Part shown: positions 1 through 53,572 of the stretch, one piece after another
How the letters are laid out: each line of letters starts with the position of its first letter
Position numbering within the stretch: position 1 is the first letter of the stretch
Assembly: GCF_003953935.1 (NCBI RefSeq)
Contig: NZ_RXLQ01000003.1
Coordinates: 124,001-188,000 of the forward strand
DNA length: 64,000 nt
DNA from: Massilia atriviolacea
Lineage (GTDB): Bacteria > Pseudomonadota > Gammaproteobacteria > Burkholderiales > Burkholderiaceae_D
Direction: 5' to 3'
Notes under the pieces: generated by a model
The model's database searches: none
What the model saw: the letters and a program-made list of their open reading frames with translations, nothing else
What the model was told of the DNA's origin: nothing
Program-made: the position numbers and the translations under genes

Positions 1-1
1 C

Positions 2-127
2 GGGCTCGATTCCGTGGCGCGCTGCCAGGATTGCTGGACCCTGTGCCGGGGCTTCACCCAGGCGCTGGGGCAGGGCTCGACCCTGCGCTCGCTGTCGGAC
101 CTCACCACGCGCATGCGCTCCCAATGA
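2..127 (+). CDS. C-terminal end of an unidentified protein (partial)
   Basis: An open frame enters from the left edge and ends at TGA 125-127, giving about 41 residues. It contains a CxxCWxLC cysteine cluster followed by a short polar tail. The next gene begins at ATG 124, overlapping this stop by 4 bp (ATGA). Every junction downstream in this operon has the same overlap, so the frame is very likely a real gene end. The family cannot be named from this fragment; the cysteines could bind metal, but that is a guess. Confidence 0.6.
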   Translation, partial: GLDSVARCQDCWTLCRGFTQALGQGSTLRSLSDLTTRMRSQ

Positions 128-915
128 ACCATGAAACGGACTACCCTGTGATCGACTCCGACGCCTCCACGCCGCCATTGCGGCTCGCGGGAAAACGCTG
201 CCTGGTGACGGGCGGCTCGCGCAACCTTGGCCGCGCCATCTGCCTGGCCTTTGCCGCCGCCGGCGCGCGCGTGGCCTTCACCTATGTCAAGGACGACGAA
301 CAGGTCGAGGTCACGCGCGCCATGCTGCGCGAGCTGGGCGCCGAGCCGCTGGTATTCAAGGGATCGGTCACCGATGCGGCGCACGCCAGGAGCACCGTCA
401 ACGCCGTCGTCGCCGAATGGGAGGGCCTCGACATCCTGGTCAACAACGCCGGCGTGATGCAGGTGCTGCCGATCGCCCTGCTGGAGGAGGACGACTGGGA
501 CCTGGTGCTCGATACCTGCCTCAAGGGCGCGTACATTTTTTCGCGCGCCGCGCTGCGGCCCATGCTGAGGGCAAAAAAAGGCCACATCCTGAACATCGGC
601 TCGATCGCCGGCGAGCGGATCGTCGAGTCGCCCGTGCATTACGCGGCTGCCAAAGCGGGCCTGCAGGGGTTCACGCGCGCGCTGGCCAAGGAAGTGGGAC
701 GCTACGGGATCGCCGTCAACGACCTGTCGGCCGGCCTGCTGGAAGCGGGCATGGGGCAGCAGGCGCCCCAGTACCGGCTGGACGACTACACTACGCACTG
801 TCCGCTGGGCCGCACCGCCACGCTCGAAGAAACCGCCGCTTTCGTCGCCTGGCTGGTATCGGACGAGAACAGCTTCATGAGCGGCGCGCGCCTGACCTTC
901 GACGGAGGCTTGTGA
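124..915 (+). CDS. Short-chain dehydrogenase/reductase, FabG-like
   Basis: This is a 263-residue NAD(P)-dependent oxidoreductase of the classical SDR family, related to 3-oxoacyl-ACP reductases. The N-terminal Rossmann motif TGGSRNLGRA, the NNAG motif, a serine in NIGSIAG and the YAAAK motif (Tyr173, Lys177) are all present, so the catalytic set is intact. The ATG at 124 is chosen over upstream in-frame starts because it overlaps the previous stop, like the other junctions in this operon, and leaves a normal SDR N-terminus. The next gene starts within its stop codon. Neighbours (aminotransferase, second SDR, membrane protein) suggest beta-keto reduction in a small biosynthetic pathway; the substrate is unknown. 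Confidence 0.9.
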   Translation: MNHETDYPVIDSDASTPPLRLAGKRCLVTGGSRNLGRAICLAFAAAGARVAFTYVKDDEQVEVTRAMLRELGAEPLVFKGSVTDAAHARSTVNAVVAEWEGLDILVNNAGVMQVLPIALLEEDDWDLVLDTCLKGAYIFSRAALRPMLRAKKGHILNIGSIAGERIVESPVHYAAAKAGLQGFTRALAKEVGRYGIAVNDLSAGLLEAGMGQQAPQYRLDDYTTHCPLGRTATLEETAAFVAWLVSDENSFMSGARLTFDGGL

Positions 916-2213
916 TGGACGCGCTCCTGCACCAGGGCTACGACGATTTTCGCGCCTTCGTGAACCCGCTGGTTTCCATGCGCGCGCGCCTGAGCAGCGA
1001 ACCTTATTTGCTCGAACGGGTGGAGCAGGGCCGATTGGTCGACACCGACGGCAAAGCGTACATCGACCTGCTGGCCGGCTGGGGCACGCAAGCCTTCGGT
1101 CACCGCCCGCCTGCCATCGAGGCGGCGCTGATGGCCTTCCTGGACGGTAGCGCGCCGTCCTTCTACCCGTCCGGCATCAGCCCGTACGCCGGGCTGCTGG
1201 CCAGCCGGCTGCACCAGCTTACCGGCTACGACGCGGCGTTTTTCGCCAGCGGCGGCAGCGAGGCGGTGGAGGCCGCGCTGAAGCTGGTGCGCGGCGCCAG
1301 CGGCAGGCCGCGCATCGCCTGCGTGCAGGGCGCCTACCACGGCTGCACGTTCGGCAGCGTGGCGATGATGCAGGCAGGCCCGTACCGTGACATCTTCGGC
1401 CCGCACCTGCCCATGGTCGACGCGCTGCCCTTCGGCGACATGCAGGCGCTCGACAAGGCGCTGGCCGATTCCTCGCTCGCCGCCATCGTGGTCGAGCCGA
1501 TCCAGGTCGAAGCGGGCGTGCGCCTGCCCGATGCCGGCTGGCTGGCGCGCCTGTGCCACGGTACGGGCGAGCAGGGCGTGCTGCTGGTGGCCGACGAAAT
1601 CCAGACCGGCCTGGGACGCACCGGGCGCTTTTTGTCGAGCCAGGACTGGCCGCGCCGCCCCGATGTGGTCACCCTCGGCAAGGCGCTCGGCGGCGGCCTG
1701 ATGCCGCTGTCGGCGATGCTCACGCGCCGGCCGGTGTTCGACGGCGTGTATGGCAAGTTCGCGCTGGCCGAGGCGCATGCCTCCACCTTCAGCGGCAATG
1801 CGCTCGCCTGCGTGGCCGGGCTGGCGGCGCTCGACCTGCTGGACGACGCCATGCTGGCCGAGGTGCGGCGCAAGGGCCGCCTGCTGCGCGACGCGCTGGA
1901 GGAATTCGTCGCGCCATCGCCACTGGTCGAGGCGATCCGTGGCGACGGCCTGATGCTCGGCATCGCGCTGGCCGCCCCCGATCATCCGTGCTACCAGTTC
2001 GACTACCTCGGCGTGCCGGAACTGGCGGCGCAGCCGGCCATCGGCATGCTGCTGGTGCACCGGCTGTACAAGGCCGGCTACATTGCGCAGATTTGCGGCC
2101 ACGCGTGGCAGGTACTGCGCGTGCAGCCGTCGTTGACGATTTCCGACGACGAGCTGCTGGCCTGCGTGCACGCCCTGCGCGAGGCGCTCGACTGCCTGTG
2201 GGACCTTCAATGA
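915..2213 (+). CDS. Class III (acetylornithine/GABA-type) aminotransferase
   Basis: This is a 432-residue PLP-dependent fold-type I aminotransferase. Visible motifs are the SGGSEAVEAALK cofactor-phosphate region, the DEIQTGLGRTG motif that holds the PLP ring nitrogen, and TLGKALGGG with the Schiff-base lysine at about residue 256. Length is normal for the class. ATG 915 overlaps the upstream stop (TGATG arrangement), and its own stop overlaps the next start. Class III enzymes transfer amino groups to aldehydes or ketones, often on long or omega-amino substrates. Lying between two FabG-like SDRs, it may aminate a product made by this operon, which is inference. Confidence 0.92.
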   Translation: MDALLHQGYDDFRAFVNPLVSMRARLSSEPYLLERVEQGRLVDTDGKAYIDLLAGWGTQAFGHRPPAIEAALMAFLDGSAPSFYPSGISPYAGLLASRLHQLTGYDAAFFASGGSEAVEAALKLVRGASGRPRIACVQGAYHGCTFGSVAMMQAGPYRDIFGPHLPMVDALPFGDMQALDKALADSSLAAIVVEPIQVEAGVRLPDAGWLARLCHGTGEQGVLLVADEIQTGLGRTGRFLSSQDWPRRPDVVTLGKALGGGLMPLSAMLTRRPVFDGVYGKFALAEAHASTFSGNALACVAGLAALDLLDDAMLAEVRRKGRLLRDALEEFVAPSPLVEAIRGDGLMLGIALAAPDHPCYQFDYLGVPELAAQPAIGMLLVHRLYKAGYIAQICGHAWQVLRVQPSLTISDDELLACVHALREALDCLWDLQ

Positions 2214-2911
2214 AACGCGTACTTGTACTTGGCGGCAGCGGCGCCCTTGGCTCGGCCCTGCTGCGCGAACTGAAACGCAGCGGCGCCGATGCGGTGTTGA
2301 CTTACTGCCACCGGGCGGACGCCGCCGCCGCTATCGGCCACGAACTCGGTTTCCCGGCCTACGCGGCCGACTTCATGCAGGCCGATGCGGTCGATGCTCT
2401 GTTCGATTCGCTCGCGCGCGACGCACGCCTGCCGGATGCGGTGGTCCACTGCGCCGGCGTGGCGCCGATTGCCACCGTCGGCGCGGTGACGGCGGCGTCG
2501 TGGGACGCAGTCCACGCCGTGCACGGACGCGCCGCGCTGTTGTGCGCGCAGCAGATGGAACGGCGCGGCCTGCGCGGTGCGCTGGTGCTGGTGGCCGCCC
2601 TCGACGGCGTGCAGCCGGTGCCCGCGCCCGCGCATTACGCGGCCAGCCAGGCCGCCATGTGGGGCCTTGTCATGGCGCTGGCCAAGGAGCTCGGCCCCAA
2701 GGGCATCCTGGTCAACCTGGCCGTGGTGGGCGTGCTCGATGGCGGCATTGCGGCGGCGCTCGACCCCAAGCTGCGCGAATCGTACCGGCGCTATTCGGCG
2801 CTGGGCCGCACCGGCACCTGCGTGGAGGCCGCGCGCGGGCTGCGCTGGCTCGCGCTGGAAAACACCTACCTGAACGGCGCGCAGTTCCCGCTTACCGGCG
2901 GCCTGGGATGA
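2210..2911 (+). CDS. Degenerate short-chain dehydrogenase homologue
   Basis: This is a 233-residue Rossmann-fold SDR with an intact GGSGALG nucleotide-binding motif. Key catalytic positions are changed: NNAG is HCAG, the serine region reads LVLVAALDG with no serine, and YxxxK is YAASQ (Tyr143 kept, lysine replaced by Gln147). It therefore probably binds nucleotide but is unlikely to be a normal reductase. It may be an inactive partner of the intact SDR encoded at 124-915, or it may have another activity. The start overlaps the aminotransferase stop (ATGA) and the end overlaps the following membrane gene, so it belongs to the same translationally coupled operon. Confidence 0.85.
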   Translation: MKRVLVLGGSGALGSALLRELKRSGADAVLTYCHRADAAAAIGHELGFPAYAADFMQADAVDALFDSLARDARLPDAVVHCAGVAPIATVGAVTAASWDAVHAVHGRAALLCAQQMERRGLRGALVLVAALDGVQPVPAPAHYAASQAAMWGLVMALAKELGPKGILVNLAVVGVLDGGIAAALDPKLRESYRRYSALGRTGTCVEAARGLRWLALENTYLNGAQFPLTGGLG

Positions 2912-3444
2912 ACCGTGCCGGCGGCGCCTGCATGCTGCTGTTGCTGGCCATCCTGGCGGTGCAGAAGACGCAGGATGGCCTGGCGCCCGAACTGCTGTGG
3001 ATGTGCCACGTCACCAGCGCCATGCTGGCGCTCGGCCTGGTCGCCAATGCCGCGCCGCTGATCGCCACCGGCTTCCTGTGCCAGGCCGCCATCGCCATGC
3101 CGGCCTATGTGCTGCATCTGGCGACCGGCGGCCATACCTCGGTTGCGTCCTTCCTGCTGCATGTGTCGGCCCCGGTGCTGGGCGCGCTGGCGATGCGCGG
3201 CAGGCGCATGCCGGCGGCCATTGCCTGGATCGCGCTGCTGCTCTACCAGCTGCTCATTGCACTGAGCCAGGCGTTCACGCCCGAAAGCATGAACGTCAAC
3301 CTGGCGTTTCGCCCGTGGGACCCGCTGGCCGGATTCCTCCCATCGGGCTGGCCGGTGCGGGTGCTGAATCTGGCGCTGATGCTGGCCCAGTTGCAGATGG
3401 TGCGCTGGCTCTGGAACCGCAGCGTGGCGGCGAAGCCTGGGTGA
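2908..3444 (+). CDS. Small polytopic membrane protein of unknown function
   Basis: This 178-residue protein is dominated by hydrophobic helices (about five predicted by eye, starting with residues 8-18), separated by short loops and ending with a basic tail. No known motif was recognised. The ATG overlaps the stop of the preceding SDR, making it the last gene of the plus-strand operon. Its 3' end overlaps the 3' end of the convergent flippase-like gene on the other strand (3296-3444). It may move or anchor the product of the operon. Confidence 0.75.
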   Translation: MNRAGGACMLLLLAILAVQKTQDGLAPELLWMCHVTSAMLALGLVANAAPLIATGFLCQAAIAMPAYVLHLATGGHTSVASFLLHVSAPVLGALAMRGRRMPAAIAWIALLLYQLLIALSQAFTPESMNVNLAFRPWDPLAGFLPSGWPVRVLNLALMLAQLQMVRWLWNRSVAAKPG

Positions 3445-4441
3445 AGACCTTGGGCAGCTTCCATGCGCCCGCGCGCCGGAACTCGCGCGCCAGCACCGCG
3501 GCGCCGGGGACGGCCACCAGATACCAGCACAGGACGCGCAAGGTCACGCTCACGGCCATCCCCTGCGGCGTGAGCGTGGGATCGAGCATGTAGCTCGTCG
3601 CCACTTCCGCCACGCCGATCGCGCCCGGCACCGGCGCCAGGTAGGCGATCATCAGGCTGGTCGAAAAGATGGTCAGCGCTTGCAGCCAGGTCAGCGTAAA
3701 GCCGAAATGGGCGGCCAGCAGCCAGCCGATGGCCACATAGGTGAGCAGGAAAATCACCGACGCCAGATGGCATACCAGATGCTGCAGGTCGCCCGACTTG
3801 CCGATGGCGGACACTGCATGCGCGCTCTGGCCGATGCCGAGCAGCGTTTTTTGCCACAGGCCGCCGCTCTTCATGACGGCGGCGCGCCGTTCGGTCCAGC
3901 GCATCACCGGTCCCGGAAAAAACGCCATCAGCGCGAGCAGCAGCGCAATGCCCAGCAGCGGCGCGGTCAGGAGCGGCAGGCCGGCCTGCAGGGGCGCCGG
4001 CAGCGGGATGGCGTGGCCGAAGGTGAGCGTGACGCACGACACCAGGCAAATCCACAAGGTCATGTAGATGCTCTTGCTGACCGACGCCGCCAGCGCATGC
4101 GGCATCGGCACGCCCTGGCGTCCGAGCATGAACATCATGGCCGGCGTGTGCAGTTCGGCGCTGGGCGTGATACTGGTGACGAAGTAGCTCACGCAGGTCA
4201 GGCGCAGGCCCTGCGCGAAACGCAGCGGATGGCCGAGCACCGCCAGCATGCTGCGAAAGCGGATCCAGTCCAGCAGGTAGAACAGGCAGGTCAGCGCCCC
4301 AAGGCCCAGCCACAGGAGTGCGGGAATGGCGCCGATCAGGGCCAGCACGCCACCCAGGCTGGCGCCGCTGGCATGCGAGAAGAAGCGCGCGGTCAGGAAG
4401 ACGGTCAGCGCGAACAGCAGGGCGAACAGGATTTTTTTCAA
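3296..4441 (-). CDS. Flippase-like integral membrane protein (lysyl-PG synthase TM / UPF0104 type)
   Basis: This 381-residue multi-pass membrane protein resembles the lysylphosphatidylglycerol synthase transmembrane region/UPF0104 family, whose members flip or modify lipids. Motifs typical of the family appear as SYFVTSITPSAELHTP near residue 90 and APVPGAIGVAEVA near residue 275. Translation probably begins at TTG 4441, whose TTGA overlaps the stop of the upstream phospholipase-like gene. The last 50 residues are proline/serine-rich and are read antisense to the convergent membrane gene, so they may be a run-on tail rather than folded sequence. A role in lipid translocation is inferred from family and context. 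Confidence 0.8.
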   Translation of the reverse strand: MKKILFALLFALTVFLTARFFSHASGASLGGVLALIGAIPALLWLGLGALTCLFYLLDWIRFRSMLAVLGHPLRFAQGLRLTCVSYFVTSITPSAELHTPAMMFMLGRQGVPMPHALAASVSKSIYMTLWICLVSCVTLTFGHAIPLPAPLQAGLPLLTAPLLGIALLLALMAFFPGPVMRWTERRAAVMKSGGLWQKTLLGIGQSAHAVSAIGKSGDLQHLVCHLASVIFLLTYVAIGWLLAAHFGFTLTWLQALTIFSTSLMIAYLAPVPGAIGVAEVATSYMLDPTLTPQGMAVSVTLRVLCWYLVAVPGAAVLAREFRRAGAWKLPKVFTQASPPRCGSRASAPSATGPASAPDSAPAPASPMGGIRPAGPTGETPG

Positions 4442-5103
4442 GAGGGACGGGTCGCTTCGATGAAGGTCAGGTAGATGGCCGCCAGGTGGCCGGCGGCGGT
4501 GGGGATGATCTGTTCGGCCTGTGCTGCGAATTCGGCGCGCGTGAGGGAACGGCGCAGGCCGAGGCGCTTGAGCAGGCGTCCCCAGTGGTGGTTGGTGCGG
4601 TCCGGCGCGAAGCCTCGGGTGAATGCGGCCAGGCCGGCGGCGGCGTCACGCGCGTTGGCGTACTGGCGCGGTATGTCGAAGGGCAGCGCCGCCAGTTGCG
4701 GGCCATGGGCCTCGACGTACCATTCGTAGCCGTCGGTCAGGTGCGCCACGCGGCTGGCGTGGACCGGGCAGGCCATGTCGATCACCAGATGCGAGGCCAT
4801 GCCCAGCTGCACGAAGGCGCGCGCGTGCTGGCCGGCGCGCCAGGCCGCGAGCGCGCGCTCGACATGCTGCTGCGCTGTGGCCGGCGCGCTGGCCGTCAGG
4901 AAGGGAACGAATCCGCCGCCGAGATGACGGCCGGAGAAGTGGTTCAGGGACCAGTGTTCCCGGATTGTGCGGCGGCGCGGCATCCAGCTTACGTCTGCGC
5001 GGATCGCACCCAGTACCAGCGCATCGTGGAAGCGGTTGAAGCACGGGTCGTCGATCTTGCGCACGGCAAGGCCGATCACCAGTTGCAGGCCGTTGTACCT
5101 CAC
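4438..5103 (-). CDS. Phospholipase C / P1 nuclease-fold (zinc-dependent) protein
   Basis: This 221-residue protein resembles the zinc-dependent phospholipase C/S1-P1 nuclease superfamily. Histidine and aspartate ligands are spread along the chain, including HDALVLGAI, an NHF segment, and ASHLVIDMACPVHASR, which looks like the family's H-x3-D-x4-HA core. No signal peptide is visible. A GTG start at 5103 is preferred because GTGA overlaps the stop of the 54-codon gene upstream; the longer in-frame extension to 5442 is antisense-like sequence across the radical SAM end. It is co-transcribed with radical SAM and flippase-like genes, which fits phospholipid or phosphoester chemistry. Confidence 0.75.
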   Translation of the reverse strand: MRYNGLQLVIGLAVRKIDDPCFNRFHDALVLGAIRADVSWMPRRRTIREHWSLNHFSGRHLGGGFVPFLTASAPATAQQHVERALAAWRAGQHARAFVQLGMASHLVIDMACPVHASRVAHLTDGYEWYVEAHGPQLAALPFDIPRQYANARDAAAGLAAFTRGFAPDRTNHHWGRLLKRLGLRRSLTRAEFAAQAEQIIPTAAGHLAAIYLTFIEATRPS

Positions 5104-5264
5104 CGATCGGCCGACGCCTGGTAGCGCGCCAGCAGGGCAAGCAGCTCGCCGTAGCGGCGCTGGCCGCCGTGCTCGGTGCAGAAGCGTTCGATGTGCGCGA
5201 GGAACAGGGGAATGGCCTCGTCGGGCAGGTCGAGCGCGCGCAGGATGTCCTCCCGCTCGCTCAT
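5100..5264 (-). CDS. 54-residue protein of unknown function
   Basis: This small, predicted alpha-helical soluble protein starts MSEREDILRALDLPDE and is rich in Leu, Glu and Arg. Its ATG (5264-5262) overlaps the stop of the radical SAM gene, and its stop overlaps the GTG of the phospholipase-like gene, so translation is coupled on both sides. That arrangement is strong evidence that it is a real gene despite its size. No family was recognised. It could be a partner or chaperone for the radical SAM enzyme, by analogy with small proteins next to such enzymes; this is speculation. Confidence 0.65.
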   Translation of the reverse strand: MSEREDILRALDLPDEAIPLFLAHIERFCTEHGGQRRYGELLALLARYQASADR

Positions 5265-6712
5265 GACACGGCCAGCCTGCCGCTGCCCAGGGTAGCCACC
5301 GGTGCGCCAGGCGCCACCGAAAAGCGCGTGTCGCGGTCGCGGTACAGGATGTTGTAGGCGCACGATGGCACGTTGCGTCCGTCCGCTTCGCGGATGCCCA
5401 CGCAGCACTGGCGTATGCGGTCGGTGTCGAAGGTTTCTTCATCCATGTGCGAGTGGATGTAGATCGCTTTCGAACTCTGTTCGCCGATGCGCATGCGCTG
5501 TTCCGTGCTAAGGCCCGGTGCGAACATGCGTGCCAGCAGGCCCTTGAGCGTGGCCAGGATGATGTCGCTGTCGGGACTTTCCATCTCGCCGGCCCACAGG
5601 CGCGTGATCACGTCCTGCAGGCGCAGTTCCACCTGCGGGGTCGGTTCCAGGTACAGGGTGCCGGTCAGGAGGGCGCGCAGGTCGGCGCGCTCCATGAAGC
5701 GGGTGAAGGGCAGCCAGCGGCCGTCGTCCAGGCGCAGCATGTAGGTGATCAGGTAGCACATCGGATGGCTCGATGGCGACGGCACGAAGTCGTCGATGCG
5801 CAGTGCGCCGCCGGTCTGCTTTTCCAGGTCGGCCAGCACGTCGTAGGTGGTGTAGCGGCCGCGCCGGTCGAAGCGCGCGCCGCCCTGGCCGGTAAAGGTC
5901 ATCGTGTGCAGTTCGACGCTGCGGATGAAGTCCTTTTCCAGCGCCAGTTTCACGAAAGCGCCGACTTCATGGTCGTTGCTGCCGCGCGCGAGGACCGGCA
6001 GCAGGGTAGTGTCGACCTTGTGTTTTTCGAGCAGGGCCAGCACCCGCATCTTCGCCTGGTAGAAATTCCCGCCCAGCATATCGATGTTCGTCCCCGGAGT
6101 GAACGAGTCGAACGACAGCACGATGCGCGCGTCCAGTGCCGCCAGCCGTTCGAGCAGCCATTCATCCTTGAGAAAGCGCAGCCCGTGGGTGGAGATGGTG
6201 ATGCGGTTGATGCCTTCGGCATGGCACAGTTCCACCAGCCGTTCGAAGTCGGGGTGCTGGGTCGGTTCGCCGCCGGTCAGGTTGATCATGCGGTTGCCCG
6301 GATCGGCGCGCCGCACGTGCCCCAGGATGGCGCGCAGCTGGTCCTGCGACATGTGGAACGCACCTTCGTTGCGGTTGTGCGTATAGCAGATCGGGCAATC
6401 GAGATTGCAGGCCGACGTGATCGGCACGATCGGCAGCAATACCTGCTGTTCGTGGCTGGTGCACGGGCCGCAGTCGAAGGGGCAGCCCTGGCTGGCCGGT
6501 GCGGCGCCTGCGGGCGGGGTCAGGATCGGCGCTTCGTTCATGGTGGCGTCGTACCAGGCGGCGTTGGACGAGACGACGACTTCTTCGGAACCGTGCCGCG
6601 GGCAGCGCTTGCGCATGACCACCCGGCCCGCGCTGCGCCAGATGGTGGCGTCGACGCTGCGTTTGCAGGTCGAACACAGGCTTGTCGTTGCGCGTACCAG
6701 CTCGTCGCTCAT
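5261..6712 (-). CDS. Radical SAM enzyme, Tes/MJ0619 (COG1964)-like
   Basis: This is a 483-residue iron-sulfur radical SAM protein. An N-terminal Cys-rich segment (Cys13, Cys16, and CPRHG at 37-41) resembles a zinc or Fe-S ribbon. The CPFDCGPCTSHEQQ motif follows at 77-90, then the SAM cluster motif CNLDCPIC at 102-109, GGEPTQHPD, and a C-terminal RQCCVGI...VPSCAYN segment. This combination matches the MJ0619/tetraether synthase family, which joins unactivated lipid alkyl chains in archaea. ATG 6712 is chosen because the conserved N-terminal motif starts there; the longer frame to 6931 is not coding-like. Assignment to the family is fairly sure, but the substrate is not known. Confidence 0.85.
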   Translation of the reverse strand: MSDELVRATTSLCSTCKRSVDATIWRSAGRVVMRKRCPRHGSEEVVVSSNAAWYDATMNEAPILTPPAGAAPASQGCPFDCGPCTSHEQQVLLPIVPITSACNLDCPICYTHNRNEGAFHMSQDQLRAILGHVRRADPGNRMINLTGGEPTQHPDFERLVELCHAEGINRITISTHGLRFLKDEWLLERLAALDARIVLSFDSFTPGTNIDMLGGNFYQAKMRVLALLEKHKVDTTLLPVLARGSNDHEVGAFVKLALEKDFIRSVELHTMTFTGQGGARFDRRGRYTTYDVLADLEKQTGGALRIDDFVPSPSSHPMCYLITYMLRLDDGRWLPFTRFMERADLRALLTGTLYLEPTPQVELRLQDVITRLWAGEMESPDSDIILATLKGLLARMFAPGLSTEQRMRIGEQSSKAIYIHSHMDEETFDTDRIRQCCVGIREADGRNVPSCAYNILYRDRDTRFSVAPGAPVATLGSGRLAVS

Positions 6713-17024: not shown

Positions 17025-18605
17025 ATGAACAAGAAAAAGTTGGGAATCATCGCCGCAGGCGCCGCCCTGTGCGCGGCCGCCGTGGCCGGCTATGCCATGT
17101 TCGGCTGGAAGAAGCTGCAGCATGGCGCAGGCCTGGACCTGGACCTGTCGCAGCCGGACGCGCTGATCGTGACCAGAAGCCTGTCCACGCTGCCGCGCGA
17201 CCTGCTCACCATTCCGCTGGCGCGCGACGTGCTGCGCGAGGACTTCGTGTTCTATTACGAGCAGAACGGCGACAAACTCGGCTTGCAGGGCGCCTTGCGC
17301 CGCATCGCCTACGAACATGAACTGGGCTGGGGCGACCAGATGATCCGCACGGTCCTCGACGAACCGGCCGACGTGGCCCTGTGGCGCGAGGAAGACGGCT
17401 CGCTCAGGCACTTCGCCATCGCCGTTTCGCGCAACAGCATGACGCGCCTGCTGGAACAAGCCGGCAAGGTCGCGCTCAAGGACACCCAGATGAAGCTGGC
17501 CGGCGAGATCCGCGTCGATGGCGACAAGGTCGCGCTGTACTCGCTCAATTACGCCCACAAGCGCACCTTGCTGATCGGCGCGCGCGGCACCCGCATGGTG
17601 ATCCTGTCCGATCCGGGCATGCTGTTCGACGGCGACGGCAAGGCGGACGGCAAGGCCGAAACGACAGTGGCCAAGCTGCTGGCCGCCGATCCGAAGCAGC
17701 AGCAGGCCTTCCGCCAGCAGTTCCAGCTCGACGCCCAGCCGGTCGACGGCCACAGCGTGGCGGTCAAGGCCGACGTGCTGGCCTTCGGCTACCAGCCGTT
17801 CTTCGGCGCGCTCGATGCGCTGCGCTTCGATTTTTCGAAAGGCCAGTGGCAGACGCGCGCGCTGGTCGATGCCGGCAAGCTGGCCGCCGGCGGCTACGAC
17901 AACCGCGCCCTGTGGCCGGTGCTGCCGCATAATCCGGCCGCCTGCTTCGCCTTGCCCGCCGACTGGGCGGCGATGACGTCGGTGCTGGGCGATGTCGACG
18001 CCTCGTCCGACCCGGCGCCGCTGGCCGAGCAGTTGACCGGGCCGGCCGCCGTGTGCTGGTACGGCAGCTCGCGCCTGTACACGCCGCTGGTGGTGGCGAC
18101 CCGCAAGGCGGGCGGCAACGACGAGCTGTATGGCGCGCTGTTCGCGGCCGCCATCGGCAACAAGAAAAGCGGCGCGGTGCAAAAGTCGTCCGGCCCGAAC
18201 GGCGCCACCTTGTGGCAGCGCGACGTCGCCACCGGCATCGGTCCCCAGCATCCGACCCTGGCGCTGAGCGGCCAGACCGTCCTGTTTTCGCCGGACCGCA
18301 AGCTGGTCGAGCAGGCGCTGGCCGTGAGCCGCAAGCAGGCGCCGGCGATTGCCGACCGCCTGGCCGACCCTTCGCGCACGGTGGGCCTGATCGCACCGTC
18401 CTCGCTGGCCGAATTGATCCGCAAGGAAGCCTTCGACGCGCTGCCGTCCGCGCGCGAACCGGTGCTGCGCGCCGCCGCCGACGCGCATCTGGTGCCGCGC
18501 CTGAACGCGCTCAAAAAATATCCGCCGTACCGCCTCGTGCTCAAGTCGCTGCCCGCCAGCGGCGCGAGCTGGCAGCCGGTCGAGTGGCAGGCGCTGGATA
18601 AATGA
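17025..18605 (+). CDS. yfaA: DUF2138 family protein, YfaA-like
   Basis: This 526-residue protein has an N-terminal membrane anchor (residues 6-27) followed by a large predicted periplasmic domain of the DUF2138 family. Characteristic stretches include [16 protein letters not shown] near residue 55 and [14 protein letters not shown]. It heads a five-gene cluster in the same order as E. coli yfaA-yfaT-yfaS-yfaQ-yfaP, which is the main reason for the name. Its function is not established. The stop overlaps the yfaT start. It probably acts with the alpha-2-macroglobulin encoded two genes downstream. Confidence 0.88.
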
Positions 18606-19270
18606 TGGCAGTCACCCGCCGCCATATGCTGGGCCTTGCCGCCGGCTGCGCCGTGCTGCCCTGGGCGCACGCGCTCACCGGCGCGCCCGCCGCCGCCATG
18701 CCGGCCTACCTGTCGAAGGCGCAGAGCCGCGCCTTCCAGGCCTGGATGCTGCGCATCGTGAACGCACAGATGGAGCAGGGCCCGTCGCCGCGCTGGCAGC
18801 ACCGCGACTGCGCGGGCCTGGTGCGCTTTGCCGTGAACGAGGCGTTGACGGTGCACGACGCCAAATGGATGCGCGCCAACGGCATCGGCAGCGACAGCCA
18901 GCTGCCGCCCGAACTCGATCTCACGCCCGCCCAGAAGACCCTGCGCAACCGCTGGGTGCAGACCGGCGGCACGGTCGGCCATTATGTTTCGGCCATCGGC
19001 CTGGTCCAGAACAACAGCCGCTTCATCGGGCGCGACCTGAATCAGGCGCAGCCCGGCGACCTGCTGTTTTTCGACCAGGGCGAGGAACACCACCTGATGG
19101 TCTGGATGGGCGCGCGCATCGCCTACCACACCGGCACCGTCACACCGAACGACAACGGCCTGCGTACCGTCGATATCCCACAACTCAAAACCTGGAAGGA
19201 CACGCGGTGGCAACCAGCGGTCGACAATCCCAATTTTGCCGGCATGTTCCGGCTGGCGTTTTTAACATGA
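18602..19270 (+). CDS. yfaT: DUF1175 family protein, YfaT-like
   Basis: This 222-residue exported protein has a twin-arginine-like signal ([12 protein letters not shown], cleavage near AHA). The body has a cysteine motif ([11 protein letters not shown]) and a later histidine (EHHLMVWMG), an arrangement like NlpC/P60-type cysteine peptidases, although family members are listed as DUF1175 and no activity is known. It overlaps yfaA by 4 bp and yfaS by 4 bp, so translation is coupled. ATG 18602 or 18605 could be used. Confidence 0.85.
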
Positions 19271-22200
19271 ACAATCCACTCACGCGCGCCATGGCGCTGC
19301 TGGTGCTGCTGTGCGGCCTGTTGCCCGCGCTGGCGCCGGCCCAGGACAACGAGGCGGCCGCGCCATCGGGCAGCAATTACACCACCTTCAAGGGCGAGCC
19401 CTTCTTCCTGCTCTCCGACGCCGCCTATGGCAGCGGCGAGGTGGCCAAGGTGCGCCTGGAAGTGCCGGGACGCGATTTTGCGCGCTCCAACCTGGAGCAG
19501 TACGGCGGCGTCGACGTGCTGGTCTACCGCGTGCCGGAACCGCTGGAATTCCTGAAGAAGCAGCGCAACCTGCACCGCGTGCAGGTGAGCGGCAACTACA
19601 AGGGCGAAGGCCTGTTCAATACCCTGACCATGCTGTGGGACCGCTGGTGGAAGCAGTCGCGCATGGCGTGGCGCAAGCTGTTTTCGAGCGAGGCGCGCGA
19701 GGCGGTCACCAGCGCCCAGCCCAAGCTGGCCACCAGCGAAGCGATCACGCGTCCGGTGCCGTTTCGCGCGCAGCCGCAGTACGAGCCGCTCAAGGGCTTC
19801 GACCTGGTCGACCGCTTCCGCTATCCGGTCTGGCAGGCGAAGATGATCGCGCCGCCGGCCGGCGTGAAGCTGGAAGGATCGAGCAGCGAATTCATGACCT
19901 CCAGCGCCGGCAACGTGATGATCCCGATCGGCCAGCGCAAACCGGGCCTGTACCTGGTCGAGGCGATCATCGGCGAACATCGCGCCACCACCCTGGTGTT
20001 CGTGTCGGACACGATGGCGATCACCAAGGTGTCGGCCAGCCAGATGCTGGTATGGGCCGCGCGGCGCGACAATGGGGCGGCGGTGCCCGACGTCGACGTC
20101 ACCTGGACCGACGGCAGCGGCGTGCTGCAATCGGGCCGCACCGGCGCCAACGGCGTGGTGTCGCTCGACCGCGGCAGTCCCGAGCATACCTATGTGATGG
20201 GTGAAGACCGCGGCGGCGGCGTGTTCGTGTCCGAGAATTTTTACTACGACAGCGAAATCTATAACACCAAGGTGTATGCGGTGACCGACCGTCCGCTGTA
20301 CCGGCCGGGCGATGAAGTCAACGTCAAGTTCATCGGCCGCGAATTTACCGGTGCGCGCGCCTCGCAGGCCGCCATGACGGCGCCGCTGGCGCTGACGGTG
20401 TTCGATCCGAACGGCACGCCGCTGCTGACGCAGTCGCTGCAACTGAGCGGCGAGACCGGCAGCGACACGCGCTTCCGCCTGCCCGACAACGCCGGCGCCG
20501 GCGGCTACGAGCTGCGTTTCACCTACCGCGACACGCAGTATGGCGCCGCCTTCCGCGTGGCCGATTACGTCAAGCCGCATTTCGAGATCAACCTGGTGCC
20601 CGCAAAAGCCGACTTCAAGACCGGCGAAGACGTCAAGGGCCGCATCGAACTGCGCTACCCGGACGGCACGCCGGTCGCCAAGGCCAGCCTGTCGCTGACC
20701 CTGCGCGCCCAGAAGAACGCCATGGTCGAAGGCGAATTGCGCTACAGCGGCGCGTTCCCGGTCGAACTCAAGACCCAGGAACTGGTCAGCGACGGCAAGG
20801 GCAATGTCGATTTCGTCCTGCCGCAGGCAAAAGATCCGTCGCGCTACATCCTCACCGTGCTGGCCTCGGACGGCGCCGCCTACCGCGTGCGCAGCACACG
20901 CGAACTGATGATCGAGCGTTCCGCCAGCCAGTACACGCTCAAGGCGCAGCGCCGCTTCTCCGCGCCCGGCGAGACGGTGCGCTTCGACGTGGCCGCCGAC
21001 GGCGCGGCAGGCGCCAAACCGGTGCGCTGGGAGATGATCCAGCTGGAGAAGCAGACCAGGACCGAAGGCGCCTTCGACGCATCCAAATCGACCTGGGACG
21101 TGAATTTCCCCGCGTCCGGTTCCTACCAGCTGAGTTTGCGCGACGCCCAGGGCAATCTGGTGGGCGGCACCAGCCACTGGGTCAGCGGCCAAGGCCTGGC
21201 GGCCACGCCGGGCAGCATCGAGATCGTCCTTGACCATGAGCGCTACCGCGCCGGCGACACCGCCGAAGCGCTGATCACCTTCGCCGACCCGGTCGACCAG
21301 GCCTTGCTGACGCTGGAGCGCGACAAGGTCGAGCAGGTCGGCTTGCTCGGCGCCGGCGCCGACTGGATCAAGCCGGTGCGCGTGGCGCCGAACCAGTGGC
21401 GCGTGAAGATTCCGGTCAAGGAGGACTACGGCCCGAACATCACGTTTTCGGTGGCGTACACGCGCAAGGGCGACTTCGTGTTCCAGAACGCCGGCATCCA
21501 GATCGTCGAACCGCGCATCGCGCTGCAGTTCAAGACCGACAAGGAAGTCTACCAGCCGGGCGAGAAGGTCACCATCGACGTCACCGCGCAGATGGACGGC
21601 AAACCGGTGTCGACCCTGGTCACGCTCGGCGTGGTGGACGAAATGATCTATGTGCTGCAGCCGGAGATCGCACCGGACATCGGCGACTTCTTCTACCACC
21701 CGCGCCGCAACAACGTGCGTACCACCGCCAGCCTGTCGTTCATCAGCTACGACCTGGCGGCGGGACGCAGCGCCGGGGCGCCCGCGCGCCACAACTACAA
21801 CGAGCGCGGCGTCAAGGTGCTGGAACGCCCGCGCCGCGACAACATCGATACCGCCCTGTGGGCGCCGGCGCTCAGGACCGATGCCGACGGCCGTGCGCGC
21901 GTCACCTTCACGATGCCGGACGCGCTGACGCGCTGGCGTATCACCGGCCGCGCGATGGATGCGCAGGGACGGGTCGGCCAGCGCAGCGGCTATCTGCGCT
22001 CCGACAAGAACTTCTTCGCCAAGTGGACCGCGCCGGACTGGATGCGCGTGGGCGACGCGCCGCAGGCGTCGGTGGCGGTGTTTAACCAGACCGCCAGCGA
22101 CCAGGCCATCGAAGTGACCCTCACCGCCGGCGCGCTCGTCAAGACCGAGAAAATCACCGCGCGCCGTGGCGTAAACTATGTGCGGTTCGCGCTGCCGGCC

Positions 22201-23823
22201 AACAGCGGCCCGATGCGCCTGGAAGTCAGGCACGGCGGCAAGCTGGTCGACGCGCTCGACACCGACGTGCAGGCATTGCCGGCCGCCTGGAACAGCCCGC
22301 GCACCCTGAGCGTACCGCTTACCGGCGCCACGGTTCCAGTCGCCTTGCCGGCGGACGCGCGCAATATCCGCGTCTCGTTCGCGAGCGGCGCGGCCAGCCA
22401 CTTCGCGCGCATTGCGGACGACCTGATCGAGTACCCGTACGGCTGCGTCGAGCAGACCTCGAGCCGCCTGATTCCGCTGGCGCTGGGATTGCAGAACCTT
22501 GGTCCCGAGGCCGGTCCGGTGCAGCTGCGCCTCCTGAACACCTTGCAGGCGCAGCGCCTGCGGCTGGTGTCGATGGCCGGTCCGGAAGCGCAGTTCGGCT
22601 GGTGGGGCAACGCCACCGCCGGCAATTCGCTGATGACCGCCTACGCCTATTACGCCGACTGGTACGCGGCGCGCGCGCTGCGCATCGAGATGCCGCCCGA
22701 GCACTGGCAAGGCTTGCTGGCCATGTACGGCAAGGAGGGCCTGAAAGAGCCGGTGCTGCACCGCGCTCTGACATTGTGGCTGGCGCAGGAAATGGGCTTG
22801 CCGGTCAAGACGCTCGCTTCCGGCCTGGCCGACGAACTGGCGAAAACCAAGCTCGATGCCAAACCGGCCGCGCTGGCGCCGACCAGCAGCATGCTGCTCA
22901 CCGCCGAAAGCGCCAACTCGCAGGCGCTGACCCTGGCCCTGCTGTCGGTCGTCGCCGCCAACGATGGCGTGACGCTGGCGCCGGAACTGCAGGAGCAGGC
23001 CGGCGCCGCCTGGACCACCTTGCGCGCCAATCCGGCGCCGCTGGCGCAAGCCTTGCTGATGCTGGGTGGGCAGGTCCCGGCCAGCCAGGCCGACGCGGTG
23101 CTGGGCGCGGTGCGCGCCGACATGCCGACCCTGGACCGCGCACTGACGCTGGTGTGGGTGCAGAAGAAGCTGGGCGGCCCGCCGGCGGCCAGAGACGCCG
23201 GCGTGGCCCTGAGCGGCACCTGGCAGAAGACGGCCAGCCCGCTCGGCCAGGCCCTGTTCCGCTGGCAGCCGGCCAAGGGCGTGCCGACCCAGCTGCAACT
23301 GGCCGAGGCGCCGCCGGCCAACACCGTCGCCGTCATCCAGTACGACAGCCGCGAAGCCGAAACGCACGCACTGCCGGTGAGGATCGAACGGCGCCTGATG
23401 CGCATGGAGCAGAAGGACGCGACCTTCAACCCGGTACCCGTGAAGAACGGCGAAGCGCTGCGTACGGATGCGCTGTACATGGATGAAATCACGCTCACCC
23501 CGGCCTCCGGCGCGAAGTACCGCTACGGCTTGCTGGAAGTGGCGCTGCCGCCGGGCGCCTCGGTCGAGGCGACCACCTGGGGCATGACGCTGGCCGGCGA
23601 GAAGAAGGAAGCGCTGGAAGCGGCGCGTCACGAGCCGCGCCGCGAAGGCTACGTGGTGCCGGTCGAACCGCTGGCCGAACCGCTGCGCGTTCGCCACCTG
23701 CTGCGCTTTGCGCAAAAGGGCAAATATGTGCTGCCGCCGGCGCGCTACTACCGCATGTACCAGCCCGAGAACAAGGCGCTGGAAGGCGAGGGCAAGACCA
23801 TGCGCACGCTGCAGGTCGAATAA
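19267..23823 (+). CDS. yfaS: Bacterial alpha-2-macroglobulin, YfaS-like
   Basis: This is a 1518-residue periplasmic or envelope protein with a signal peptide (cleavage near APAQ, residues 24-27) and serial macroglobulin-type beta domains. The central region contains [16 protein letters not shown] and the VDEMIY segment typical of the family. The thioester motif is present as YGCVEQ (Cys1060 to Gln1063), so the protein could form the internal thioester used to trap proteases. Length is close to E. coli YfaS (about 1530). It lies between yfaT and yfaQ with overlapping junctions. A protease-trapping defence role is inferred from the family. Confidence 0.93.
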
Positions 23824-25508
23824 TGTCGCCATGGCTGTTAGCGGGACTGGCGCTGTGCGCGCCGCTGGCGCAGGCGGCCACGCTCGATGTGGCGTGGTGG
23901 CGCGACGGCCGGCTCACGGCGCTGCAACTGGACGACAAGGGCGCCACCCGCCGCGCCGCCTTCGACGGCAATCGGCAGGTTCCCCTGGGCAGCCTGTGGA
24001 AGCTGTTCGTCTACGTCTACGCGATCGACAACAAGGTGCCGACGCCGGACTATACCTGCGGCGGGCAGAAGGACGAGGAAGTGTACTGCTGCACGGCCGG
24101 CAAGCGCATCGCGCGCGACCTGGCGCTGGCGCAGTCGTGCGGCCTGTTTTTTTCGCCGGCGCGCCTGATGCTCGCGCGCGCCCCATGGCGGCAGTACTGG
24201 AGCGGGCGGCTCGGGCGCGGCGCGAGCGGCGAGTACGACTGGCTGGCCGACCCCTCGCACCTGGCGCCGGAACGGCTGGTCAGCCTGCGCAGCCTGCTGG
24301 CGGCGCTGGCCAGCATTCCGGCCGGGAGCCGCAAGGACGCCGAATCGGCGCTGCTGCACGTGGTGCTGGGCGCGCGCGGCGTCAACACGGCCAGCTGGTT
24401 CGGCAGCCGCCTGCGCGTGAAGACCTACTCGTGGCACCACCCGCAGCGCCCCGGCGAGCGTCTCGGCGGCGCGGCCGGCTGGCTGGCCGACGGCACGCCG
24501 CTCTGGTTCGGCGGCGCCGACACCAGCAGCCGCATCCTGGAAAAATGGGCGCCGCGCCTCGCAAGCACCTTGCCGGCGGCAGCGCCGCCGGGCGACGCGG
24601 GCTGCGTGGTGGTCGACTACTTCGCGCGCTACCCGATCAGGAGCGTCGCCGCCGGGCGCGCCGCCGCCGTGCCGGGACTGCTGAACGGGCCGTACCAGGT
24701 GCGCTTCGAGAATGGCCGCAGCCTGGCTTTCTTCAGCCAGAACGACATGGTGCTCGCGCGCGATGCGCAGGGCCGCCTGCGCCTGACGGGCCGCTTCGGC
24801 GTCAACGACTATGTGGCGCGCGTGATCGACCGCGAAGGCGGCACCGCCGCGCCGGAGGCGGCCAAGGCGCTGGCGGTGGCGGCGCGCACCTACCTGCAGC
24901 AGAATGCGCAGTGGGCCGAGGGCTGCCAGCGCATCGCCGACAGCAGCGCCACGCAGCGGGTCGGTCCGCAGCCGGCCAGCGTGGCGGCGCGCGCGATTGC
25001 CGACTGGACCGACCAGCTGGTGCTGTCCGGCGTGAACGTCCGCTATCACACGGATACGGCTTCGAAGGACACGATGGCCTGGAGCGAAGCCGTGGCGCAG
25101 GCGGGGCAGGGCATGCGCTTCGATGCGATCTTGACGTCCGCCTATCCGGGCGCCGACCTGACCACGCTTTCGGGCGGCGACTCGCAGCAGTGCGTGCGCC
25201 TGCCCGGCGCGCAAGCCTGGCTGGCGCGCGAGCTGCCGCGCTGGGAGCGCGCGCTGCGCAGGCAGGCCGGCTACGAAACGCCGGCCGAACTGCCGGCGGT
25301 ATGCCACCTGGCGCGCGGCACGCCGTATTCGGAGCAGTCGCGCAACCGGATCTATGTGCGCGGCCTGGCCAGCCGCGAAGACCGCATCACCCTGGCGCAC
25401 GAGTTCCTGCACCTGGGCCTGCGCAACCATCCGAGCGGACAGGATGAAGTCCTGGTCGAACAAGTGGCGCGGCGCCTGGTCGATGCGCGCCTGGAAGCGC
25501 ATCAATAA
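23823..25508 (+). CDS. yfaQ: DUF2300 family protein, YfaQ-like
   Basis: This is a 561-residue exported protein (signal cleavage near AQA, residue 18). Three features stand out. SLWK (residues 57-60) with a nearby AQSCGLFF resembles the SxxK and SxN motifs of penicillin-binding proteins, and RVKTYSW could stand in for KTG. The middle AKALAVAARTYLQQNAQ resembles SpoIID-type peptidoglycan enzymes. HEFLH at residues 526-530 is an HExxH zinc motif. These are resemblances by eye; the known family label is DUF2300. The start overlaps the yfaS stop. Confidence 0.87.
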   Translation: MSPWLLAGLALCAPLAQAATLDVAWWRDGRLTALQLDDKGATRRAAFDGNRQVPLGSLWKLFVYVYAIDNKVPTPDYTCGGQKDEEVYCCTAGKRIARDLALAQSCGLFFSPARLMLARAPWRQYWSGRLGRGASGEYDWLADPSHLAPERLVSLRSLLAALASIPAGSRKDAESALLHVVLGARGVNTASWFGSRLRVKTYSWHHPQRPGERLGGAAGWLADGTPLWFGGADTSSRILEKWAPRLASTLPAAAPPGDAGCVVVDYFARYPIRSVAAGRAAAVPGLLNGPYQVRFENGRSLAFFSQNDMVLARDAQGRLRLTGRFGVNDYVARVIDREGGTAAPEAAKALAVAARTYLQQNAQWAEGCQRIADSSATQRVGPQPASVAARAIADWTDQLVLSGVNVRYHTDTASKDTMAWSEAVAQAGQGMRFDAILTSAYPGADLTTLSGGDSQQCVRLPGAQAWLARELPRWERALRRQAGYETPAELPAVCHLARGTPYSEQSRNRIYVRGLASREDRITLAHEFLHLGLRNHPSGQDEVLVEQVARRLVDARLEAHQ

Positions 25509-25525
25509 TCTTACCGAACCCGATC

Positions 25526-26278
25526 ATGAAAATACTGTTGATACCCGCACTGCTGCTGTCCACCGCCGCCCTGGCCCAGGTGAAAATCGACTCGCCCAAC
25601 AGCGGCTGGCGCAATTCCAGGGGCGCGCAGGAAGCGTACACGCAGGACGTGAATTACCCGGCGGCGTCGGTCAGCGTGCAGGAGGGGCAGAGCCCGACCG
25701 CCGAGATCCGCGGCCGCATCGCCGCCAGGGGCAAGGGCAAGCCGGCCACGCTGGTGGTCAACGGCGTGGCGATGCCGATGGCGGTGCGGGAAGACGGCAG
25801 CTTTGCGCGGCCTTACGCTTTCGGACGCGGATCGAACAGCGTGGAAGTGCGCTCGCCGGACGGCAAGACGCGCAACCGCAGCCAGTTCCTCGACGCGAAC
25901 GCCGGCAAGACCCAGTCGCGCCTGCGCGTGGTGCTGTCGTGGGACAGCGACGGCACCGACGTCGACCTGCACGTGGTCGCGCCCGACGGCGGCCACGCGT
26001 GGTTCGGCGGGCGCGTGATGCCCAACGGCGGCGCGCTCGATGTCGACGTCACCACCGGCTACGGCCCGGAGATTTTCTCCAGCGCCGCGCCGCCCAAGGG
26101 CAATTACCACGTCTACGTGAACTACTACGGCGCCGGCCAGGAAACCGGCATCCTGACGGTGGCGCAGGTGGCGATCATCACCAACGAAAACTCGCCGAAC
26201 GAGCGCCAGGAAGTCATCCGCGTGCCGCTGCGCGCGCCGGGCGAGCTGACACTGGTGAAGTCGTTCGTGTATCCCTGA
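25526..26278 (+). CDS. yfaP: DUF2135 family protein, YfaP-like
   Basis: This 250-residue secreted protein has a short signal peptide (cleavage near LAQ) and a DUF2135 beta-sandwich domain marked by LSWDSDGTDVDLHVVAPDGG, then YHVYVNYYG and a final basic strand. It completes the yfaA-T-S-Q-P order and sits 17 bp after yfaQ. Related domains occur in proteins with von Willebrand-like or calcium-binding roles; no activity is known for this family. Confidence 0.88.
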   Translation: MKILLIPALLLSTAALAQVKIDSPNSGWRNSRGAQEAYTQDVNYPAASVSVQEGQSPTAEIRGRIAARGKGKPATLVVNGVAMPMAVREDGSFARPYAFGRGSNSVEVRSPDGKTRNRSQFLDANAGKTQSRLRVVLSWDSDGTDVDLHVVAPDGGHAWFGGRVMPNGGALDVDVTTGYGPEIFSSAAPPKGNYHVYVNYYGAGQETGILTVAQVAIITNENSPNERQEVIRVPLRAPGELTLVKSFVYP

Positions 26279-26408
26279 CCGGCGCTCCGAAAACAACGCT
26301 CCTCAGCGGCGCTTTGACAGTTTTTGAACGGCATGTAAAACTGTCGTCAGGAAATATCATCCTGGCCGCGCTCCGTGCGCGAGAAACTTTTGACGAATGG
26401 GAGTGCAA

Positions 26409-26780
26409 GTGAGTATTGCAGCATGGATTTACGATGCCAGCATCGTAATCAGGACCGACCGGCAGCCGGCGGCTTTGGAAGCGCTTCGGACATCGTTCGA
26501 AGATTGCGACTCCTGGTACGGCGAGCGAGCGCGCGCGGCCGATGATTTTCCGGCATTCCTCGAAGCGATCTACTTCACCAGCAAAAGCCAGGAAGGCGCA
26601 TTGATGATCGACGGCGGCGACATCGACGTCATCAGCAATGGCCTGATCCGCCTGTTCGAAACGCTCGGCCCCTTCGTGGAAGCGGGCGGCGTGGTCGAAA
26701 TCCGCGACGAAGAAGGCGAGCAGATGAATTTTTGCTACAACGGCGAGCAAATGGATATCGAATTCACCATCGGCGAGTAA
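26409..26780 (+). CDS. Conserved hypothetical acidic protein
   Basis: This is an approximately 123-residue soluble, acidic protein with several Glu/Asp-rich turns near the C-terminus (IRDEEGEQMNF, MDIEFTIGE). GTG 26409 is preferred because GGGAG lies 5 bp upstream; ATG 26397 in the same frame would add four residues. No family was recognised. It is not clearly part of the yfa cluster or the cobalamin operon, since about 130 bp precede it and 140 bp separate it from the riboswitch. Confidence 0.65.
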   Translation: MSIAAWIYDASIVIRTDRQPAALEALRTSFEDCDSWYGERARAADDFPAFLEAIYFTSKSQEGALMIDGGDIDVISNGLIRLFETLGPFVEAGGVVEIRDEEGEQMNFCYNGEQMDIEFTIGE

Positions 26781-26920
26781 TCGCGGCCTGCTACCCTGGT
26801 GCGCCTTGCGGCTTATCGCCCGACACCGGCGCGACCCGGCAGATAAGCGCACGGCGGCGCGCACCGCGCGCGCAACCTTGCATTTTAACTAGTCCAGACC
26901 TATACTTCGCCGGTAGTCAA

Positions 26921-27119
26921 GCTTCTGGTTCGGGCAAACGATCGTTTGCCCGATTAAATGGGAAGCCGGTGCGCCCCTCCCGTGGGCAAAGCCGGCGCTG
27001 CCCCCGCAACGGTAAGCGAGTCGAGGATGTGCATGACGCCACTGTGCAAAGCATGGGAAGGCGCATATCCGGGAGGGGGAAATACCCCGCCACTCGCCAG
27101 CCCGGAAACCAGCCGAAGC
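26921..27119 (+). promoter_or_regulatory. Cobalamin (B12) riboswitch aptamer
   Basis: The conserved core is visible in order: GGGAAGCCGGTG, AAAGCCGGCGCTGCCCCCGC followed by AACGGTAAGC, GCCACTG, GGGAAGG, and a final CCCGGAAACCAGCC. The outer P1 helix forms between GCTTCTGGTT (26921-26930) and AACCAGCCGAAGC near the end. A perfect 22-bp palindrome (26931-26952) forms P2. It precedes cbtB by 162 bp and should repress the cobalt transport and cobalamin operon when B12 is abundant. Confidence 0.93.
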
Positions 27120-27143
27120 GGTAAGTCGTTTGTATCGCGGAGG

Positions 27144-27161
27144 GCGATCCAGGTGGATCGC
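27144..27161 (+). promoter_or_regulatory. Probable expression-platform hairpin of the B12 riboswitch
   Basis: GCGATCC and GGATCGC form a perfect 7-bp stem with an AGGT loop, 25 bases after the aptamer. The loop could pair with aptamer or downstream bases to switch translation or termination of cbtB. No U-tract follows, so translational control is more likely than termination, which is inference. Confidence 0.4.
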
Positions 27162-27281
27162 TGCGTACCGCACCCCCATCTCACGTTCCTCTCCCCGTAC
27201 AAGCCCCCGGTTGCCGGCCATGGCAAGACGCGCGCGTCTGCATCGGCCGGCTCTATGCGCAGTGCTTTAGGAAGGAATGCC

Positions 27282-28222: not shown

Positions 28223-28225
28223 CCG

Positions 28226-51033: not shown

Positions 51034-51048
51034 GGGATTCTCCGGTAA

Positions 51049-53545: not shown

Positions 53546-53572
53546 CGTCATTCTCACAGAGACAGAAGTGGT

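Follow-up and report, generated by a model that had tools for sequence, protein, structure and literature searches.

A Tes-like radical SAM enzyme at one end of a type II synthase cluster in Massilia that may direct an amine-bearing long-chain lipid

The window analysed here, 64 kb of Massilia atriviolacea DNA, contains a gene for a Tes-like radical SAM enzyme, rSAM1. Judging by sequence and gene content, we lean towards the view that rSAM1 forms the right-hand end of a horizontally spread cluster for an amine-bearing long-chain lipid. The cluster consists of 21 genes over 19.6 kb, from SDR_A to rSAM1 (G000:C23:111087-130712). Only its right third lies in the window (Table 1); the cluster extends 12.9 kb beyond the left edge. 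The original prediction had proposed an unusual membrane lipid or a long-chain amine, and this would remain the best product class for a locus that carries both lipid-type and amine-forming genes.

Table 1. Cluster genes in the window (window coordinates unless another contig is named)
Feature	Position	Strand	Remarks
rSAM3, radical SAM/SPASM gene, 3' end	1..126	+	whole gene L005:15078-16127 = G000:C23:123078-124127
SDR_C, FabG-like short-chain dehydrogenase	124..915	+	
AT2, class III aminotransferase	915..2213	+	top NCBIfam match PigE
SDR_D, short-chain dehydrogenase	2210..2911	+	
TM2, 178-aa protein	2908..3444	+	membrane type by eye; no Pfam match
Flippase-like membrane protein (LPG_synthase_TM)	3296..4441	-	PF03706, 73.4 bits
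Zinc-dependent phospholipase C-like protein	4438..5103	-	PF00882, weak, 29 bits (cut-off 26.8)
ORF54, 54-aa protein	5100..5264	-	no Pfam or NCBIfam match
rSAM1, Tes-like radical SAM enzyme, 483 aa	5261..6712	-	right end of cluster
Remaining left part of cluster	G000:C23:111087-124127		outside window

rSAM1 is a complete ORF in the reverse complement; the original prediction had given no strand for it. The motifs reported earlier (CPRHG, CPFDCGPCTSHEQQ, CNLDCPIC and RQCCVGI...VPSCAYN) are all present in the minus-strand translation. Long overlapping ORFs also occur on the plus strand of the same interval, as is usual for opposite-strand frames at comparable G+C, and family matches came from the minus frame only. 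The start at 6712 agrees with the nearest relative, which is also 483 aa long. Pfam searches detected Radical_SAM (1.1e-22) and the HMPTM zinc ribbon (1.1e-15), and the top solved structure was 7tol, the M. jannaschii enzyme (E 1.9e-58). rSAM1 is related over nearly its whole length to Tes/GDGT-MAS (MJ0619; 7tol, 7tom).

To place rSAM1 among known families, it was scored against two NCBI models together with rSAM2, a second Tes-like paralogue that this contig carries ~16 kb further left (37% identity, E 1.6e-96). Against the Tes equivalog model NF045702, rSAM1 and rSAM2 reached 234.6 and 268.3 bits, below the cut-off of 450. The TrsS model NF045646 gave a full-length match to rSAM1 at 233.2 bits and scored 285.8 bits with rSAM2, both under its cut-off of 490. 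Identity with TrsS was ruled out by this cut-off, which none of six cluster-bearing genomes and none of 14 controls exceeded. For TrsS, the literature searched offered one table line and no function.

A tree was built from 81 rows, thinned for similarity from 111 and rooted on 13 archaeal Tes rows (support 100), by a quick method with SH-aLRT support only and with long branches flagged. The cluster enzymes (50 rows, 98) separate from the common proteobacterial homologues (clade B; 18 rows, 99), and the long-branch join of the archaeal rows with clade B was flagged as possibly false. rSAM1 lies outside the archaeal Tes clade in this 81-row tree. The cluster clade splits into rSAM2 (15 rows, 100), a third paralogue (9 rows, 99), and a group of 22 rows (95) that holds rSAM1 and its divergent forms. 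rSAM1 itself groups with a Janthinobacterium MAG, a gammaproteobacterial MAG and two proteins (5 rows, 99), next to myxobacterial rows. The missed cut-off and the separate bacterial clade rule out rSAM1 as Tes proper. The tree, which holds no TrsS sequence, did not place rSAM1 firmly in a non-lipid family; since the equally scoring TrsS family is absent from it, the tree alone is no proof of a lipid substrate.

The metal sites bear out the relationship of rSAM1 to Tes. MJ0619 is described as carrying three [4Fe4S] clusters and a rubredoxin-type iron (PMC9433317). The rubredoxin site (CX2CX20CX2H), the N-terminal auxiliary site [4Fe4S]N (C/C/C/H) and the SAM cluster (CX3CX2C) are each present in 18 of 19 rSAM1 rows, and H40 is found in all 19. 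The exception is L054, in which the N-terminal part is encoded in a different frame; ligand gaps in the alignment come nearly all from trimmed or cut rows. In rSAM2 the rubredoxin-site His is replaced by Cys (13/13 rows with residues there). We assigned C338, C455 and C470 of MJ0619 to the C-terminal auxiliary cluster on the ground that 13/13 archaeal rows have them; in the alignment they correspond to C319, C436 and C451 of rSAM1. All three are conserved in the rSAM1 (19/19), rSAM2 (15/15) and third-paralogue (9/9) rows, and in 0/18 rows at each site in clade B, which shares with rSAM1 the zinc ribbon, N-terminal auxiliary and SAM cluster residues. From this conservation we infer that C319, C436 and C451 would hold a Tes-type catalytic auxiliary cluster.

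All archaeal metal-ligand positions are kept in rSAM1 save one. Met439 of MJ0619 is reported as a labile ligand of the C-terminal auxiliary cluster (PMC9433317). Its position is Met in 13/13 archaeal rows and His in every row of rSAM1 (H420; 19/19), rSAM2 (15/15) and the third paralogue (9/9). The position of Tyr459 is occupied by Ile, Met or Val in the rSAM1 rows (Ile in rSAM1 itself), by Asn or Asp in the third paralogue and by Tyr in rSAM2. These replacements do not exclude a Tes reaction, because the M439A and Y459F/L mutants of MJ0619 are reported to be still active (PMC9433317), and together they suggest that substrate or outcome may differ from Tes. The cysteine pattern suggests a simple sequence rule separating bacterial homologues that could perform Tes chemistry from those that probably cannot, and this rule bears on the gene-based prediction of membrane-spanning lipid producers.

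The cluster begins on the minus strand with SDR_A and rSAM2. A plus-strand run follows with a FabZ-like dehydratase, KS1, CLF1, KS2, CLF2, the FabG-like SDR_B, a nitroreductase, ACP, TM1, AT1 (class III aminotransferase), rSAM3 (SPASM), SDR_C, AT2, SDR_D and TM2; the flippase-like, phospholipase-like, 54-aa and rSAM1 genes then lie, left to right, on the minus strand. The coupled overlaps described earlier were found as ATGA (rSAM1/ORF54), GTGA (ORF54/phospholipase-like) and TTGA (phospholipase-like/flippase-like), and TM2 and the flippase-like gene overlap convergently. Two SDRs and an aminotransferase had been predicted opposite rSAM1, and the family search indeed assigned SDR, class III aminotransferase and SDR. 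The G+C content is 0.695-0.731 across seven 2-kb steps (L005 6001 to 20000) and 0.637-0.669 over rSAM2 and SDR_A, vs. 0.671 for the window.

The left part of the cluster encodes a type II synthase. The Cys-His-His residues align at C164/H291/H328 in KS1 and C178/H316/H351 in KS2, and CLF1 and CLF2 lack all three; with these KS-like partners devoid of the active Cys stand a KR, a DH and an ACP. The ACP was assigned by eye from its GAESLDFLDIVF motif and had no Pfam or NCBIfam match in the frame scanned. H43 and E57 of the dehydratase are kept in 11 rows and the Lys of the aminotransferases is invariant in 13 rows; we take these to be the catalytic residues of the two families. At the level of genes, the KS/CLF pairs, KR, DH and ACP resemble the highly reducing type II PKS of aryl polyenes and ishigamide, and a KS/CLF pair with a class III aminotransferase resembles the cispentacin system (AmcF-AmcG, AmcC). 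In contrast to both, the Massilia cluster has two KS/CLF pairs, Tes-like enzymes and a flippase-like gene. The closest solved KS to KS1 is of FabF type (211 bits), above 6kxd (125) and 6qsp (124), presumably the ishigamide and aryl polyene enzymes. AT1 and AT2 score best to PigE of prodigiosin biosynthesis (428 and 303 bits) and match its aminotransferase part, with 4ppm, which we take to be PigE, as the nearest solved chain. Unlike PigE, they have no fused reductase domain, and no other prodigiosin gene was recognised in the cluster.

TM1 (L005:12686-13738) is of membrane type, has no Pfam match and carries H51, H113, H252 and H325, which are invariant in six sequences; it may be an undescribed membrane metal enzyme. 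An FA_hydroxylase gene is present in seven of 13 relatives' stretches without TM1, and one gammaproteobacterial MAG (G688) has both.

Much of the cluster gene set recurs in Myxococcota and other MAGs. We compared stretches from 25 genomes, chosen for the presence of rSAM1 (25/25) and leaving aside the near-duplicate Polyangium genomes G695 and G696 and the fragments L058 and L060. rSAM2, AT2 and SDR_A were each found in 21, the dehydratase and SDR_D in 20, KS and ACP in 19, SDR_C in 18, TM2 in 17, SDR_B and the nitroreductase in 15, CLF1 and the flippase-like gene in 14, CLF2 and TM1 in 12, rSAM3 in 11, and AT1 and the third Tes-like paralogue in 10. FA_hydroxylase and the phospholipase-like gene occurred in eight, the only carriers of the latter other than Massilia being a Janthinobacterium MAG and G698; acyltransferase-3 and phosphopantetheinyl transferase occurred in three. 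These counts are rough lower bounds, since the stretches are incomplete and the labels are best hits (tblastn, at least 35 bits), so that SDR, aminotransferase and short labels can be wrong; that of rSAM3 in G689, for example, comes from a match of 59 residues. Ten further genes of the relatives' stretches were assigned to families by family search. ORF54 has matches in four named Massilia, in G192 and in a Janthinobacterium MAG. Only one of the 25 stretches (G707) has both rSAM3 and the third Tes paralogue, as if the two were interchangeable.

A search of 20 relatives' whole genomes with rSAM2 gave matches of 67-82% identity in 14 and of 42-45% in G705-G707. In the other three (G689, G692, G702) the only matches, at 33-37%, were their rSAM1, and no rSAM2-type match was detected. 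For eight further cluster genes, distances correlated with the rSAM1 distances (r 0.75-0.92, 11-20 genomes; an equally high value in 0 or 1 of 2000 permutations), to which five near-identical Massilia, mixing of SDR paralogues and shared host ancestry can contribute.

The distribution is patchy. A Tes-like match at E ≤ 1e-20 was present in 24 of 294 Oxalobacteraceae genomes, and a cluster-type gene in seven (six of genus g1, one Janthinobacterium MAG); in the other 17 the best match was a different gene, 28-32% identical. Within its own genus the cluster occurs in 6 of 17 genomes. Across the phylum, 12 of 398 genomes gave a match at E ≤ 1e-40, and only the own genome reached a cluster-type score (967 bits; others ≤ 223). 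A protein search gave 1326 matches from 8000 scored candidates, the best 120 of the 1326 at 67-94% identity; named among the matches listed were Janthinobacterium, Hyalangium, Kofleriaceae, Polyangiaceae, Myxococcales and unplaced deltaproteobacteria and Pseudomonadota. A contig scan with two short patterns recovered 34 loci, 27 of them of the rSAM1 family (50-97% identity); the remaining seven (L061-L067), which are 25-34% identical over part of their length, were counted as outside it. The 27 include four named Massilia, Polyangium, Sorangium, deltaproteobacterial/myxobacterial MAGs, one gammaproteobacterial MAG and one acidobacterial MAG. Named cultured carriers are Massilia aquatica, M. 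rubra, M. frigida and M. mucilaginosa, and Polyangium. The cluster is found in some Antarctic Massilia, and a related form in myxobacteria.

The outer limits of the cluster are marked by a deletion scar. The gene flanking the cluster on the left is present in seven of 17 genus genomes, and G138 alone has this flank without the cluster. At this locus (L147) both flanks are collinear with those of the own genome, apart from insertions of about 2 kb and about 5 kb of other DNA in the left flank and the absence of the gene that lies immediately right of rSAM1. In a short reading frame at L147:4126-4356, residues 1-23 of rSAM1 (91% identical) run directly into the C-terminal 21 residues of SDR_A (100%). 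The fused frame indicates that the block was once present in G138 and then lost, and that rSAM1 and SDR_A are its outermost genes. The scar is followed by a reading frame that by eye resembles a TonB-type receptor.

The gene content allows a route to be proposed. Two KS/CLF heterodimers with ACP, the FabG-like and FabZ-like proteins and probably the nitroreductase would build ACP-bound acyl chains. rSAM1 and rSAM2 (with the third paralogue in 10/25 stretches) would cleave SAM and abstract H from unactivated chain carbons; a sulfur of the C-terminal auxiliary cluster would retain the carbon radical until attack by a second radical gives a C-C bond. In MJ0619 the substrate carbon is thought to be held on the C-terminal cluster sulfur in this manner until a second radical attacks (PMC9433317), and this precedent leads us to favour C-C bonding over other outcomes. 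The SDR/class III aminotransferase pairs may then turn the polar-end carbonyl(s) into amines, although the order of steps could differ. PigE-type enzymes aminate aldehydes. Amination of an ACP-bound ketone by a class III aminotransferase has a precedent in AmcC of cispentacin biosynthesis (PMC10698177). A membrane oxidase-like protein (TM1 or FA_hydroxylase) and the flippase-like protein would finish and place the lipid. That the product is a membrane lipid is suggested by the flippase-like, FA_hydroxylase and acyltransferase genes.

The original prediction had also mentioned that related bacterial enzymes have been linked to membrane-spanning lipids. The family matches of the cluster include no recognisable ether-forming gene, and brGDGT-type ether lipids were rejected on this ground. 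A bacterial pathway to membrane-spanning lipids is described with the synthase Mss and with Ger (PMC11868695).

A bolder form of the amine-bearing lipid can be put forward tentatively, and it is rather doubtful that all of its parts will hold. The product may be a bola-aminolipid of a so far unrecognised bacterial class, in which two KS/CLF-made chains are joined tail to tail by the His-ligated Tes-like enzymes, and an amine (or a sphingoid-like amino alcohol) is added at each end by a separate SDR/aminotransferase set. This would give a two-headed, membrane-spanning lipid in aerobic bacteria. The two-headed reading derives from the two synthases, the two aminotransferases and the tail-joining enzymes. 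A chemical analogue is known from sponges, which contain bola-like sphingolipids (PMC11767167); if the proposal is true, it would open a route to two-headed sphingolipid-like compounds, of which we found only sponge examples. One M. antarctica strain is reported to contain an unidentified aminolipid and nine unidentified lipids (PMC9028926), and the fab genes of Antarctic Massilia to number about four more on average (PMC10213415). Both are compatible with the aminolipid idea and neither is a test of it. Two split-transketolase-like genes, recognised by eye, lie between AT1 and rSAM3 in the gammaproteobacterial MAG G688 (L138:9178-12074). This is the only genome with such a pair within the cluster; the pair is a candidate source of a C2 unit for a sphingoid head.

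The same enzymes could instead close rings within one chain, giving carbocycles as proposed for ladderanes and, as product, a cyclised fatty amine. We consider this unlikely. With two or three paralogues per cluster, each might contribute a single bond within a single chain, but we know of no Tes relative that makes small carbocycles. A KS/CLF with KR and DH can make polyenes, which could be cyclised (PMC10698177); MJ0619, however, is described as joining two separate chains or two tails of one lipid (PMC9433317).

It is quite improbable that the cluster makes a diffusible secondary metabolite, such as an amine antibiotic or pigment, rather than a membrane lipid. The PigE-like aminotransferases, the patchy presence in the genus (6/17 genomes) with one loss, and a tree that crosses phyla would suit such a product, and Antarctic Massilia do make prodiginines, although from another cluster (PMC10213415). 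For M. frigida, the same source lists 17 antiSMASH clusters, among which are prodigiosin and one that matches an aryl polyene cluster at 36% (PMC10213415). Against a diffusible product stand the recurring flippase-like, phospholipase-like and FA_hydroxylase genes, and no efflux or resistance gene was seen among the family matches of the 19.6 kb, in which TM1, TM2, ORF54 and ACP had no match.

Little probability attaches to a sulfur-containing lipid (thiol or cyclic thioether) with the auxiliary cluster as sulfur source. MJ0619 under limiting SAM is reported to yield a sulfur-bearing lipid, sulfur-inserting enzymes to have non-traditional ligands at the donor cluster (PMC9433317), and the cluster clade has an invariant His at the labile Met position. 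The Met to His replacement alone does not decide the outcome, however, and the family matches of the cluster showed no protein recognisable as an iron-sulfur repair or carrier protein. It is very unlikely that rSAM1 acts on a cofactor, pterin, RNA or peptide and has lipid genes as neighbours only fortuitously: several relatives are still named as pterin methylase and the TrsS model scores equally (233 bits), but the same neighbours recur across phyla, the G138 scar marks rSAM1 as one end of a lost block, and the Tes metal sites are kept.

Bacterial Tes homologues are reported by the hundreds, with no experimentally confirmed role given in the sources consulted (PMC8941075, PMC11868695). Our literature search, which covered mainly open-access journal papers, found no account joining Tes-like enzymes with a KS/CLF cluster. 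The cluster ties one clade of these homologues to chain-building and amine-forming genes in named cultured species, and the role of this clade is now approachable by gene deletion and lipid extraction.

The other Tes-like clade (L076-L084, in other Oxalobacteraceae) is more widespread and lacks the C-terminal auxiliary cysteines. Unlike rSAM1, its members in the gene-called loci L076 and L078 have no synthase cluster; the Tes-like gene is preceded by a lipoprotein-like gene and by one for a membrane protein, which resembles Lgt by eye. Elsewhere in the window, DUF2138, alpha-2-macroglobulin-like and DUF2300 genes are followed by CbtA, CobN and a magnesium-chelatase-like gene (17025-34557). A pectate lyase/pectinesterase protein, a GH28 protein and a TonB-dependent receptor lie side by side at 47491-56295, perhaps a locus for pectin use.
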